This document shows, piece after piece, positions 55,934-61,537 of a stretch of DNA of 64,000 nucleotides. The translations under genes and the position numbers were made by a program. The notes under the pieces were generated by a model. The model saw only the letters and a list, made by a program, of their open reading frames with translations, had not been told where the DNA came from and searched no databases. The stretch's first letter is position 1; each line of letters begins with the position of its first letter. Source of the DNA: Coriobacteriia bacterium (lineage in GTDB: Bacteria; Actinomycetota; Coriobacteriia; Anaerosomatales; SLCP01); the NCBI GenBank assembly GCA_030603745.1, contig JAUVXE010000005.1, positions 1-64,000 of the forward strand. The letters run 5' to 3'.

Positions 55934-56614
55934 ATGGGGCTGGTGCTCGACGCGGTGCTCGAGGCGATCCTTCCCACGCGATGCGCGGGGTGCGACCTTC
56001 CGGGCGGGCTGCTCTGCGACCGGTGCGCCAACGCGCTCCCGCGTATCGAGCATGCGTGGGCGTGTCCCCGGTGCGGTGCCCCCTTCGGCTACCTGACCTG
56101 CACCGAGTGCTGGACGAGCGAGCCGGCGTTCGAGGCGGGGACGTGCGCGGGCGCGCTCGGGCCGCCGCTGTCGCGCGCAATCACGCTCTACAAGGACTCC
56201 GGCGAGCGCCGCCTCGCGCCCGTCCTCGGCGACCTGCTCGCCGCGTCGCTGCAGCCGTGGGACGGCTGGCCGCAGGCGGTGGTGGCGGTGCCCGCCTCCG
56301 CCGAGGCGGTCCGGCGCCGGGGCTTCGACCACACCGCCCTGATCGCCGCACACGTCGCCACCCGCCTCGGCGTGCCGCGGCTCGACGCGCTCGGCTGTGC
56401 GGGCGCCCGCGACCAGCGTGCCCTCGGTCGGCTCGCGCGGGCCGTCAACGTGGCCGATGCGTTCGTCGCGCGACCGGGGCTCGTGCTGCCGCCGCGGGTG
56501 TTGTGCGTCGACGACGTCATGACCACGGGTTCGACGCTTGACGCTGCCGCGGCGTCACTGCTCGCCGCCGGCGCCGAGCGGGTGAGGGTCGGTGCCATCG
56601 CCCGTGCATGGTAG
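55934..56614 (+). CDS. comF: ComF family phosphoribosyltransferase-like protein
   Basis: A 226-residue protein with an N-terminal zinc-finger region of CxxC pairs (CAGC, CDRC, CPRC, CTEC) and a C-terminal type I phosphoribosyltransferase fold with PRPP loop VDDVMTTGST and the RGFDHTALIA motif. In B. subtilis ComFC is needed for DNA uptake; other members are called double zinc ribbon/PRTases with unclear chemistry. GAGGGGG precedes the ATG. In many Gram-positives comF lies next to raiA (hpf), as it nearly does here (hpf is 4.4 kb downstream). Confidence 0.9.
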   Translation: MGLVLDAVLEAILPTRCAGCDLPGGLLCDRCANALPRIEHAWACPRCGAPFGYLTCTECWTSEPAFEAGTCAGALGPPLSRAITLYKDSGERRLAPVLGDLLAASLQPWDGWPQAVVAVPASAEAVRRRGFDHTALIAAHVATRLGVPRLDALGCAGARDQRALGRLARAVNVADAFVARPGLVLPPRVLCVDDVMTTGSTLDAAAASLLAAGAERVRVGAIARAW

Positions 56615-56617
56615 AAT
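56609..56617 (+). promoter_or_regulatory. Extended -10 promoter of the structured RNA
   Basis: TGGTAGAAT at 56609-56617, over the comF stop codon. A transcript would begin near 56624, exactly at the 5-prime side of the closing stem of the predicted RNA. Confidence 0.45.
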
Positions 56618-56622
56618 ACGCC

Positions 56623-56874
56623 TGCTTTCACCCGGGTCTGTGGTTGCGGGTGCGCGAGCACCTCAGTCCATGGTAGGCGCGGCCGAAAGGATCCACGTAA
56701 GCCGGGGGCGTATGCCCTCGCGCGAGCATGGCGCGCCTTAGGGGTAAGTCGTACCGTCCGACCTGCGGCCCACAGAGTCGCGGGCGGACGAGAGGGCCGG
56801 TAGTGAGATAGCATCAAGCGGAAGCCCCGGTATGCGAGTGTGGGGTCAAAGACCAGGTCAGCCGGGTGAAAGCA
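56623..56874 (+). ncRNA. Predicted structured RNA (raiA-motif-like candidate)
   Basis: This ~250-base segment has no coding frame with sensible start or family and folds strongly. Its ends pair: 56623-56635 with 56862-56874, 13 bp without mismatch. Inside are 56638-56640 with 56859-56861; a stem on a GCGA tetraloop (56649-56653/56658-56662) backed by TGG/CCA; 56675-56681 with 56732-56738 (7 bp) enclosing a GTAT-loop hairpin at 56704-56719; 56755-56760 with 56785-56790 extended by 56762-56767/56779-56784; and a GGTC/GACC hairpin at 56844-56854. Size, closed ends and location right behind comF with hpf (raiA) nearby suggest the raiA-motif RNA of clostridia and actinobacteria; this is inference. 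tmRNA, SRP and RNase P marks are missing. Confidence 0.55.
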
Positions 56875-56901
56875 TCGCAATCCGACACGAGGAGGCACGG
56901 A

Positions 56902-57720
56902 ATGGTTCTGCACAGGATCGGTCTCGTCGCGCTGACGTTCGCCCTCATGGTGGCGGTCGTCGGGTGTGCACCTGCCGAGGAGCCCGGACCTGCGCTCGAG
57001 CCCAAGGTCGCGCCTCCCGTCATCGCAGAGGAGGGCGTCTTGCGGGTCGGCGTCGACCTCGGCTACCCGCCCTACGCCGGGACCGACAAGGGCCGCGAGG
57101 CCGGGATCGACATCGACGTCGCCTCCGCGCTCGCCACCGAGCTCGGCCTCGAACTCGAGCTCGTGAGCATCGAGGCGTCCGCGGCCGCCGAGGCGCTCAG
57201 CTCGGGAGACGTCGACATCTTCATGTCGGTGCCGTTCACCGAGTCCGCGGTGCTCGAGGTCTCCTTCGCCGGCTGGTACACCGCGAGCGGACCCGCCGTA
57301 TTCTCGAGCGTCGAGGACACGCTCACCGCCGAGCCCGCCCCGGGCCAGACGACCGCTGTCCAGCAGGGCTCCGAGGCGTACTGGGCGCTCTCGTTCGAGT
57401 ACGGCGAGGCGGCACTCGTCGTGACCGACAGCCTGCGCGATGCCTTCGAGGCCCTCGACCGTGGCGAGGTCTCCGTGGTGGTGGGCGACGCGCTCACCGG
57501 GGCGTACCTGCTCCGCGACTTCGAAGGCCTCGGCTTCGCCGGCCAGTACGGCCCGGCGACCCCGATCGGCATCGCGGTGGCGACCGACGCCGATACGCTC
57601 GGGACCGCTGTCAGCGAGGCGCTCGATGCCCTCGCAGCCGCCGGCGTGCTCGACACCATCCGCGCCAAGTGGGTCGACGACCTGCCCGTACTCGAGACCG
57701 GCGAGCTCGGCGAATCTTAG
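56902..57720 (+). CDS. Amino acid ABC transporter substrate-binding lipoprotein
   Basis: A 272-residue family 3 solute-binding protein (SBP_bac_3). The lipoprotein signal ends at Cys22 (AVVGCAP), so it is tethered outside the membrane. VGVDLGYPPYAG and the GIDIDVASALATEL segment are typical, and ADTLGTAVSEALDAL and IRAKWVDD close the domain. It lies just behind the structured RNA with GAGGAGG seven bases before the ATG. It is diverged from the second binding protein, so it may bind a different amino acid or be a receptor-like variant. Confidence 0.88.
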   Translation: MVLHRIGLVALTFALMVAVVGCAPAEEPGPALEPKVAPPVIAEEGVLRVGVDLGYPPYAGTDKGREAGIDIDVASALATELGLELELVSIEASAAAEALSSGDVDIFMSVPFTESAVLEVSFAGWYTASGPAVFSSVEDTLTAEPAPGQTTAVQQGSEAYWALSFEYGEAALVVTDSLRDAFEALDRGEVSVVVGDALTGAYLLRDFEGLGFAGQYGPATPIGIAVATDADTLGTAVSEALDALAAAGVLDTIRAKWVDDLPVLETGELGES

Positions 57721-57761
57721 TCGCATAGAATCAGCGCATTCACGTATACTTGCACGTCGTT

Positions 57762-57790
57762 TTCACATACTCGCGCGTTTGGTGTATCGT
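57762..57790 (+). promoter_or_regulatory. Possible promoter of the second binding protein gene
   Basis: TTCACA at 57762-57767 and TATCGT at 57785-57790 with a 17-base spacer, in the 142-base gap. A second -10-like TATACT lies at 57745-57750. The gap is visibly more AT-rich than the flanks. Confidence 0.35.
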
Positions 57791-57862
57791 TATCCCTCGG
57801 TGGTAAGGACCGCGCGCATCCGTTTCGCGCACGGAACCGTTCATAGATATGAGGGAGGAACG

Positions 57863-58684
57863 ATGCTCAACGCAAAGAAGGTGCTCCTGCTTGCGCTGGC
57901 GGTCGTGTTGGCCCTGGGCGTCATGGGTCTCGCGGGCTGCGGCAGCGATGAGCCGGCCGACGAGCCGGCCGACGAGCCCGCCGAGGAGTTCGAGTTCACG
58001 CTCATCCAGGAGGGTCGCCTGATCGCCGGTTCCGACACGGCCTACCCGCCCTTCGAGTTCATCGAGGACGGCGAGGTCATGGGCTTCGACGTCGATCTCG
58101 TCGCCGCGATCGCCGAGCGCCTCGGTCTCGAGTACGAGTTCCGCACCTACAACTTCGACGCGCTGATCGTCGGCCTCCAGGGTGGGACCGAGTTCGACAT
58201 GATCGCCTCGGCGATGACCATCACCGAGGAGCGCGCGCAGCAGATCGACTTCTCCGATCCCTACATCGACTCTAACCAGTCGCTGACCGTTCGCGCCGAC
58301 AGTGACATCGAGACGCTCGCCGATCTTGCAGGCCTGCGCATCGGTGTCCAGTCCGGCACCACCGGCGAGGAGTACACCCGCAACAACCTCCCCGAGGGCG
58401 CCACGGTGGTTCCGTTCGAGAACATCCTGCAGGCTATGCAGGCCCTGCAGGCCGGCGAGGTCGAGGGTGTCGTCAACGACCTGCCCATCTCCGCCGACAT
58501 CGTGCTCGACGAGACCCGTGAGCTCGTCATCGTCGAGGAGCTCATCACCGACGAGCAGTACGGGTTCGCCTTCAACAAGGACAACCCCGGCCTGCGCGAT
58601 GCCGTCAACGCCGCCCTGGCCGAGATCAAGGCCGACGGGACCTACGACGACATCTACCGCAAGTGGTTCGGCGAGACTCCGTAA
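57863..58684 (+). CDS. Polar amino acid ABC transporter substrate-binding lipoprotein
   Basis: A 273-residue SBP_bac_3 lipoprotein with acylated Cys26 (GLAGCGSD) and an acidic, repetitive linker (three EPAD-type repeats). The binding domain has GSDTAYPPFEF, GFDVDLVAAIAERLG, MTITEERAQQIDFSDPY and GVQSGTTGEEY, the features of glutamine/polar amino acid binding proteins. GGGAGGAA precedes the ATG. A hairpin separates it from the permease gene, so it is probably made in excess. Confidence 0.93.
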   Translation: MLNAKKVLLLALAVVLALGVMGLAGCGSDEPADEPADEPAEEFEFTLIQEGRLIAGSDTAYPPFEFIEDGEVMGFDVDLVAAIAERLGLEYEFRTYNFDALIVGLQGGTEFDMIASAMTITEERAQQIDFSDPYIDSNQSLTVRADSDIETLADLAGLRIGVQSGTTGEEYTRNNLPEGATVVPFENILQAMQALQAGEVEGVVNDLPISADIVLDETRELVIVEELITDEQYGFAFNKDNPGLRDAVNAALAEIKADGTYDDIYRKWFGETP

Positions 58685-58804: not shown

Positions 58805-60157
58805 ATGGTTCACGACGGCGCCACCCGCACGACCCGCTGGACGGCGATCGCGCTGATAGCGCTCGCACTCGCGCTGCTGCTGCCGACGGCGGCCGGCGCG
58901 GCGCTCCCCGCCGAGGCGGATGTCACGTACATACCGGTCACCGCGACGATCGATCAGGTCACGGTCGAGTTCGTGGTCCCCGCCGAGGAGGTCGCGGCGC
59001 CCGCGGTCCTCATGTTCGAGTTCCCGCCCGAGCTACGGGCCGGCAGCATCCGCGGCACCGACGTCCGCATCACGAGCGACATCCGGCCGCCTGCTGTGGC
59101 CTCGGCCGACGACCGGATCACGCTCACGATGAACCCGGCGCCCGCTCCGGGGTCGATCCTCTCGATCAGGATCGGCGGCCTCACCACTCCTGAGGAGCCC
59201 GGTGTCTACACCGTCATCGCGCGCTTCGGCGAGCAGGGTGCCGAGGCGCCCCTCGGCGAGTTCGGGATCGATGTGCCCAAACCCAATCCGCTCCAGGCGA
59301 TGTTCCGCGCCATGGAGCGCGTGCCGTTCCTCCGGCAGTTCTTCTCGCCGAGTATCATCTGGGGCGCGCTCCCGCTGTTGTGGCGTGGTTTCCAGGTGGC
59401 CGTGCTCATCCTCGCGGTCTCCTACACGTTCGGCATCCCGCTCGGCCTGACGCTCGCGTTCATGAAGATGGCGCGGTTCCCGCTGCTTCGGTGGCCTGCC
59501 ACGGCGTTCATCGACGTGGTGCGGGGGACGCCGCTTCTCGTCCAGCTGCTGCTCGTCTACTTCGGCATCACGTTCGTGCCGGGGTGGCGGGAGCTGATGA
59601 ACGCCCTCGGCCCGCTCGCGAGCTGGCAGCTGTACTCGATCGACGCGACCCAGTTCCTCCGGGCGATCCTCGTCCTGTCGATGAACTCCTCGGCGTACAT
59701 GGCCGAGATCTTCCGGGCGGGCATCCAGTCGATCCACAAGGGCCAGCTCGAGGCGGCGCGCTCGCTCGGCATGACGTGGCCCAAGTCGATGGCGTTCGTG
59801 ATCATCCCGCAGACGGTGCGGCGGATCCTCCCCACGATGATGAGCGAGTTCATCCTACTGTTCAAAGACACGTCGATCCTGTTCGCGGTCGGCATCTTCG
59901 AGCTCACGCTGCAGGCGCGCACGATCCAGGCGGCGAAGTTCAACATGTCGCCCTACATCGCGGCCGCCGGCTTCTACCTGATGCTGACGATCCCGCTCGG
60001 GCGATTCGTCGCGAACCTCGAGGCGCGACTCTCGGTCGCCGAGACCGGTCGCGGGCCGGACACCAAGAAGCGGGGGGGCAGGCGTGGCCGGCTGCCGCTC
60101 AAGCTGGGCCGTGAGGCCGTCACGCCGATCGCGTCGGACGAGGTGAAGGACCGATGA
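58805..60157 (+). CDS. Amino acid ABC transporter permease with N-terminal extracytoplasmic domain
   Basis: A 450-residue protein. The C-terminal part (about 175-415) is a standard HisM/GlnP-type permease with about five transmembrane helices, [17 protein letters not shown] and the EAA loop [21 protein letters not shown] that contacts the ATPase. Unusually, it is preceded by a hydrophobic segment (about 12-34) and a ~125-residue Pro/Val/Glu-rich beta domain that would lie outside the cell. GlnP-type permeases are usually 215-320 residues. In GlnPQ-type fusions the extra domain is a solute-binding protein, but this one does not look like SBP_bac_3. The C-terminus is basic. Start ATG 58805 with AACGAAGGA upstream; overlaps glnQ by four bases. 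Confidence 0.88.
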
Positions 60158-60894
60158 CACAGACCGACCACATGGTATGCATCGAGGATCTCCACAAGAG
60201 CTTCGGCGACCTCGACGTGCTCAAGGGGGTCGATCTTGAGGTGACCCGCGGCGAGGTCGTGGTCATCCTCGGCCCGTCCGGCTCGGGCAAGTCCACGTTG
60301 TTGCGCTGCGTGAACCGCCTTGAGGAGCCGACCGGCGGCAAGGTCTTCATCGAGGGCATCGAGGTGACGGACCACAAGACCGACATCAACCGGGTGCGCG
60401 AGCGGGTGGGGATGGTGTTCCAGTCGTTCAACCTCTTCCCGCACCTCACCGCGCTCGGGAACGTGATGCTGGCACAGCGCAAGGTGCTCAAGCGCTCCAG
60501 GGAGGAGGCCGAGCGCATCGCTCGGCAGCAGCTCGACAAGGTGGGGCTGTCCGACAAGGTCGACGCCTACCCGATCCAACTCTCCGGCGGCCAGCAGCAG
60601 CGCGTGGCGATCGCCCGGGCTCTCGCGATGGATCCGCATGTCATGCTCTTTGACGAGGTCACCTCGGCGCTCGATCCTGAGCTTGTCCGAGAGGTGCTTG
60701 AGGTCATGAAGTCGCTCGCGCAGGCGGGGATGACGATGATGGTGGTCACGCACGAGATGGGCTTCGCGCGTGACGTCGCCGACCGCGTGATCTTCATGGA
60801 CGAGGGCGTGATCGTCGAGCAGGGGAGCCCCGACGAGGTGTTCGACGACCCGCAGAGCGAGCGGACGAAGGACTTCCTCGGCCACATCAGGTGA
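60154..60894 (+). CDS. glnQ: Amino acid ABC transporter ATP-binding protein
   Basis: A 246-residue ATPase that powers the permease. Walker [11 protein letters not shown]-loop [10 protein letters not shown], signature LSGGQQQR, Walker [15 protein letters not shown] and switch His in VVTHEMGF are all intact. The [14 protein letters not shown] stretch is characteristic of the GlnQ/HisP polar amino acid group. ATG overlaps the permease stop (ATGA). Confidence 0.96.
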
Positions 60895-60985: not shown

Positions 60986-61537
60986 ATGAAGATGATCATC
61001 AAAGGTCGCCACATGGCGCTCACTGACGCGATCCGCGACTACGCGGACGAGAAGATCGGCCGGGTCAGCAAGATCCTCGACGGCGAGCACATGACCACCG
61101 AGGTCGAACTGTTCGTCGAGAAGAACCCCTCGATCGAGAACAGTCAGGTCGCCGAGGTGACGGTGTGGACCAAGGGTCCGGTGATCCGTGCCAAGGAGGC
61201 CGCCCCCGACATGTACGCCGCGATCGATCTCGTCTCCGAGAAACTCGAGCGTCAGTTCCGCAAGTACAAGGGCAAGATGCAGGACCGCCACTCATCGAAG
61301 GCCCCCATGCCTCCGATGCCCGCGGTCGAGCCGATCGGCTTCGAGGAGGAGGCCGAGCCCGCGATCGTGAAGACGAAGGCGTTGGAGCTCAAGCCGATGA
61401 CGCCTGAGGAGGCGATCCTGCAGCTTGAGCTGCTCGGCCACGACTTCTTCGTGTTCACCTCGGCGGAGACGGAGTCCGTGAGCGTGCTGTATCGGCGGCA
61501 CGACGGCGACTACGGCCTCATCGAGCCGAGAGTCTGA
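60986..61537 (+). CDS. hpf: Ribosome hibernation promoting factor, long form
   Basis: A 183-residue RaiA/HPF protein that inactivates 70S ribosomes in stationary phase. The N-terminal S30AE domain (1-~105; IIKGRHMALTDAIRDYADEKI) binds the decoding centre. A linker and the C-terminal dimerisation domain (about 125-180; MTPEEAILQLELLGHDFFVF, YRRHDGDYGLIEP) make it the long form that pairs ribosomes into 100S dimers. GGAGG precedes the ATG. A hairpin at 61559-61588 ends the unit. Confidence 0.95.
   Translation: MKMIIKGRHMALTDAIRDYADEKIGRVSKILDGEHMTTEVELFVEKNPSIENSQVAEVTVWTKGPVIRAKEAAPDMYAAIDLVSEKLERQFRKYKGKMQDRHSSKAPMPPMPAVEPIGFEEEAEPAIVKTKALELKPMTPEEAILQLELLGHDFFVFTSAETESVSVLYRRHDGDYGLIEPRV

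Follow-up and report, generated by a model that had tools for sequence, protein, structure and literature searches.

A raiA-motif RNA directly upstream of a solute-binding lipoprotein gene in the class Coriobacteriia

Background

The raiA-motif (ModT) RNA, whose molecular activity is unexplained, belongs to the most abundant RNAs of Clostridioides difficile and Clostridium acetobutylicum (PMC11706538). In C. difficile and C. acetobutylicum it affects the stationary-phase transition and sporulation and acts in trans, as judged by complementation in trans, these two clostridia being the only organisms in which trans-action has been shown (PMC11706538). Its typical neighbours are comFC, in 74% of cases, and raiA/hpf, in 66% (PMC11706538), and according to a review the raiA RNAs are often located upstream of periplasmic-binding-protein genes (PMC11477304).

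The RNA described here lies in a 64,000-nucleotide stretch of DNA from a Coriobacteriia bacterium (the window). In common with ModT of C. difficile and C. acetobutylicum, it has a full-length match to the family model, the helices P1, P3, pk-1 and those of the 3' domain, comFC upstream, its own sigma-70-type promoter and a single copy in the genome; it differs in being GC-rich, in its extended variable hairpins, in having no terminator and in having a solute-binding lipoprotein gene directly next to it, and it possesses the P2 hairpin that the C. difficile RNA lacks (PMC11706538). With riboswitch-type leaders it shares a structured 5' element at a short distance from a transporter-type gene, but it has no recognisable expression platform and the raiA-motif family is trans-acting where tested.

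Results and discussion

Identity and distribution of the RNA

The gap between the stop codon of comFC (56612-56614) and the next ATG (56902) is exactly 56615-56901. For this gap an earlier note, made from the letters alone, had proposed a raiA-motif RNA or, failing that, a new class of RNA, and had called for a scan with RF03072 and all other Rfam models. Three lines of evidence confirm the first proposal: the match to the Rfam covariance model, the synteny of the locus, with comFC before the RNA and hpf after it, and the covariation among relatives. The scan (cmscan) matched RF03072 (raiA RNA) at 56627-56870 of the forward strand with 159.1 bits and an E value of 6.4e-41, above the gathering score of 101.3 bits and over model positions 1-209 of 209; no other Rfam family and no tRNA was found in the whole window, and the genome has one copy of the RNA. 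The match excludes a new class of RNA, and together with the covariation described below it contradicts the broader rival in which the gap holds either a new class or a spacer structured by chance, which is vanishingly improbable. The window RNA is a genuine, well-supported member of the known raiA-motif family, and what is notable is the lineage-specific leader setting of the RNA, not its family identity, nearly every genome of the group having the RNA.

The raiA-motif RNA was found in 54 of 61 relatives, in 189 of 199 Coriobacteriia genomes, almost always as a single copy, and in 137 of 396 genomes drawn from the phylum. Three of the ten class genomes without an RNA match (G001, G027 and G146) have a match to SBP1, the gene that follows the RNA in the window, at the start of a contig, and in these the RNA was probably lost to assembly; two (G012 and G039) have no match to any SBP either, and the others have only weaker, SBP2-like matches. 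Genome G020, which is 98% complete, has neither the RNA nor SBP1. Contigs of metagenome-assembled genomes end at or next to the RNA-SBP1 junction in G001 (C125), G027 (C12), G146 (C28 and C16) and at loci L163 and L147. The raiA RNA looks as if it were a frequent assembly break point, which accounts for at least part of the cases in which the RNA seems to be missing. One metagenome-assembled genome (G008) has two raiA RNA loci (L037 and L038), one of them with hpf directly after SBP1 and without transporter genes, and is possibly a mixed bin.

Promoter and structure

The extended -10 promoter element that the earlier note placed at the edge of the gap is present as TGGTAGAAT at 56609-56617 of the forward strand, where its -10 hexamer overlaps the stop codon of comFC. 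Such an element occurs no more than 25 nt upstream of the RNA in 55 of 60 class loci, compared to 0.6% of random stretches, and lies mostly 9-10 nt ahead of the start of the RNA model with near-constant spacing; the shorter pattern TANNNT is found just upstream of the RNA in all 60. Transcription from this sigma-70-type promoter overlapping the end of comFC would start at about position 56624.

The 13-bp perfect terminal stem, the further stems and the GNRA tetraloop of the earlier note all proved to be present in the sequence. The terminal stem, P1, pairs 56623-56635 with 56862-56874 across 226 nt; its outer four base pairs are outside the Rfam model, and its 3' strand is not followed by a T-tract. 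The P2 hairpin (56648-56663), recognized by both fold and covariation, carries the GCGA tetraloop at 56654-56657. Covariation defines the remaining helices: the P3a/P3b stem (56666-56692), which consists of 56666-56669 paired with 56689-56692 and 56672-56674 paired with 56682-56684; the pseudoknot pk-1, in which 56675-56681 of the P3 loop pair with 56732-56738 of the pk-loop; a variable hairpin (56703-56720) that pairs 56703-56708 with 56715-56720; and a 3' domain (56750-56834) with an outer helix (56750-56754 with 56830-56834), a second helix (56755-56759 with 56786-56790) that carries a lineage-specific extension, and a third helix (56794-56797 with 56824-56827), all on the forward strand. 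The minimum free energy is -119 kcal/mol, compared to -104.4 ± 4.8 kcal/mol in dinucleotide shuffles (z = -3.0), of which one in 200 was as good.

The covariation test of the stems that the earlier note had proposed was carried out on an alignment of 60 class RNAs. RNAalifold predicted 46 pairs, 25 of them with compensated changes. Under the Rfam structure of the window RNA, 87.9% of the cells of the alignment are paired and 28 pairs have two-sided changes. A structure with P3a/P3b and pk-1 was built after the published cryo-EM description, which defines pk-1 as seven consecutive pairs between the P3 loop and the pk-loop (PMC11751092), the assignment of the cryo-EM helices P3 and pk-1 to columns of the alignment being putative. 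Under this structure, 95.5% of the cells are paired (86.8% in shuffles) and 35 of 57 pairs have two-sided changes, neither value being matched by any of 500 shuffles, which is strong covariation across the 60 relatives; when partners are slid out of register, pairing falls to 30-45% of cells. Two-sided changes occur in nine of the 12 helix pairs of P1 (97.9% of cells paired), in five of six pairs of P2 (helices 3 and 4), in three pairs of P3a/P3b (100% paired), in three of the seven pairs of pk-1 (helix 7; 96.9% paired) and in all six pairs of the variable hairpin (helix 8; 72.8% paired), and the helices of the 3' domain (helices 9-11) are 98.7-100% paired. The fold of the family also includes non-canonical core contacts and a second pseudoknot, pk-2, whose two pairs make it too short for covariation analysis. 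The nested helix that Rfam draws through columns 92-136 of the alignment is paired in 51.8% of the cells of the class, and P3a/P3b with pk-1 fits better there; the stored structure of RF03072 may deserve revision.

Gene neighbourhood

All genes around the RNA are on the forward strand. Upstream is comFC (55934-56614), a phosphoribosyltransferase with a zinc ribbon, both Pfam matches being slightly below gathering. Downstream are SBP1 (56902-57720), a family-3 solute-binding lipoprotein with an AlphaFold pLDDT of 90.9 that is the partner of the RNA throughout the class; SBP2 (57863-58684), a canonical family-3 solute-binding protein; the permease (58805-60157) and ATPase (60154-60894) of an amino-acid ABC transporter; and hpf/raiA (60986-61537), a long-form ribosome hibernation factor (PF02482 and PF16321). 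The position behind comF and upstream of hpf on which the earlier note had relied thus stands insofar as comFC adjoins the RNA, but hpf is about 4.1 kb downstream, behind SBP1, SBP2, permease and ATPase, and the gene directly downstream is SBP1. The two typical neighbours of the family are therefore both found, comFC directly upstream and hpf beyond the ABC operon.

The order comFC-RNA-SBP1-SBP2-permease-ATPase-hpf recurs in the 41 loci of the order to which the window belongs, with few exceptions that are mostly contig ends. SBP1 follows the RNA directly, at a distance of some 30 nt or less, in 57 of 60 class loci; in the families of the class beyond this order it is next after the RNA in 16 of 19 loci. 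Two of these families, f18 and f22, which appear to be Atopobiaceae/Coriobacteriaceae-like, have hpf next after SBP1; in the four loci of family f19, which appears to be Eggerthellaceae-like, comFC is either inverted or displaced, a match to hpf was not found within 6.5 kb, and SBP1 nevertheless stays beside the RNA. At two loci of family f21 (L102 and L103), SBP1 is replaced, at an equally short distance from the RNA, by the gene of a small, probably helical protein (beginning MPIETEKIDE or MPIDAEKIDE). A gene of the SBP_bac_3 family is within approximately 0.9 kb of the RNA in all 60 class loci, including the three without SBP1.

In a reciprocal search with the SBP1 profile alone against 84,980 species, the RNA was directly upstream on the same strand in 79 of 80 SBP1 relatives, the eightieth beginning at a contig edge. 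The profile was built from RNA-linked SBP1s, and of 161 confirmed matches only the best 80 were retained; the result therefore establishes a link to the RNA for the SBP1 clade, but not for every SBP in the class. These relatives are Coriobacteriia wherever a class is named, several of them Anaerosomatales, and the others are metagenome-assembled genomes labelled Actinobacteria, Actinomycetota or Actinomycetes. One Aeromicrobium is also among them, apparently through an error of binning or labelling.

The raiA-motif RNAs of other Actinomycetota (L108-L135) have in common with the window RNA the family and the comFC/hpf neighbourhood, but in these loci the RNA is between comFC and hpf, hpf is next, no SBP was found within 1.5 kb of the RNA, and a T-tract usually follows. 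A T-tract after P1 was found in 16 of 24 loci outside the class, which were picked by best score and not at random, and in four of 60 class loci (Fisher P = 3e-8; the measure of a T-tract is crude). What is added here to the reviewed association with periplasmic-binding-protein genes (PMC11477304) is the class-wide, leader-like tightness of the link between the RNA and SBP1.

SBP1 is a lipoprotein with the family-3 solute-binding fold. In family-3 solute-binding proteins, an arginine holds the carboxylate of the ligand and an aspartate its amino group. The arginine is present in SBP2 and absent in all 38 aligned SBP1 sequences; a looser alignment, which is gapped at this column, adds 78 SBP1s, of which only one has it. 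The aspartate is kept in 72 of 79 SBP1s. A tryptophan (W161 in the window protein) is invariant in the 38 aligned sequences. SBP1 may have a ligand that is not one of the standard amino acids, or may act as a sensor.

The RNA-SBP1 junction and the mode of action

A probable explanation of the locus as a whole is that a single trans-acting raiA-motif RNA has its own promoter, is read through into SBP1 and is linked to nutrient limitation. The covariance model and the covariation show that the RNA folds into the compact core of the family with its multiple helices and pseudoknot; as a homologue of the clostridial RNAs, it would most likely be a trans-acting, abundant and stable RNA that helps cells to leave exponential growth. 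With no intrinsic terminator in Coriobacteriia, unlike most other Actinomycetota sampled, transcription should continue into SBP1, so that RNA and SBP1 would be co-transcribed and the mature RNA would be either cut out of a longer mRNA or kept as its 5' end. The lasting link to SBP1, often together with an amino-acid importer and hpf, would fit a role at the transition to nutrient limitation and ribosome hibernation.

The same junction bears on a second explanation, that the RNA of Coriobacteriia is (also) cis-acting, a riboswitch-like leader controlling SBP1 and perhaps the importer and hpf. In almost every locus of the window's order, about 22-50 nt separate the RNA from the start codon of SBP1, which has a good Shine-Dalgarno sequence, and this order-wide spacer would equally suit a cis-acting leader, which counts against the trans explanation. 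Cis action is further favoured by the presence of SBP1 directly downstream in the class and of the RNA in the reciprocal search (among the best 80 of 161 matches), by the SBP_bac_3 gene close to the RNA at every class locus, by the loss of the T-tract in Coriobacteriia only, by the survival of the link in the f19 loci, and by the Rfam typing of RF03072 as 'Cis-reg; riboswitch'. However, no terminator-like site was found in 56400-57900, and a terminator-type switch was rejected on that ground. The Shine-Dalgarno sequence of SBP1 (GAGGAGG, 56889-56895, forward strand, 15 nt past the P1 stem) has no predicted pairing with the RNA core, which makes a simple riboswitch unlikely; over 35 loci the mean pairing probability with the core is 0.06, from energy models that treat pseudoknotted RNA poorly, and a riboswitch by Shine-Dalgarno sequestration has no support from this value. 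No expression platform of either type was found coupled to the RNA core, though a subtler or ligand-induced one may exist; no conserved sequence was seen in the spacer, and the ability of the clostridial RNA to complement in trans (PMC11706538) is evidence against a riboswitch. On balance a cis role is unlikely, but the leader position suggests that the RNA either is processed out of a longer transcript or has a cis role as well.

A third explanation, that the strong promoter of the RNA has been co-opted for expression of SBP1 and the neighbours have no functional relation, is rather doubtful. The gap is so short that there is little room for a separate SBP1 promoter, and SBP2, permease and ATPase may be transcribed separately, from a promoter-like site that lies between SBP1 and SBP2 (57762-57790, TTCACA-17-TATCGT); but class-wide retention of the link through rearrangements of the neighbours exceeds what promoter sharing readily explains.

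Conclusions

Few bacterial RNAs of unexplained biochemical function are as abundant and as conserved as the raiA-motif RNA. In Coriobacteriia it is locked class-wide to one lipoprotein gene with no terminator between them, which makes SBP1 a concrete partner, and this setting raises the question of a processed leader versus a trans-acting RNA. A speculative and improbable idea is that in this class the RNA and SBP1 form an obligate RNA-protein gene pair, in which a bifunctional 5' leader would yield the trans-acting RNA and couple its synthesis or release to a lipoprotein that senses nutrients. If that were true, the RNA-SBP1 pair would be the first genetic handle on what the raiA RNA responds to.
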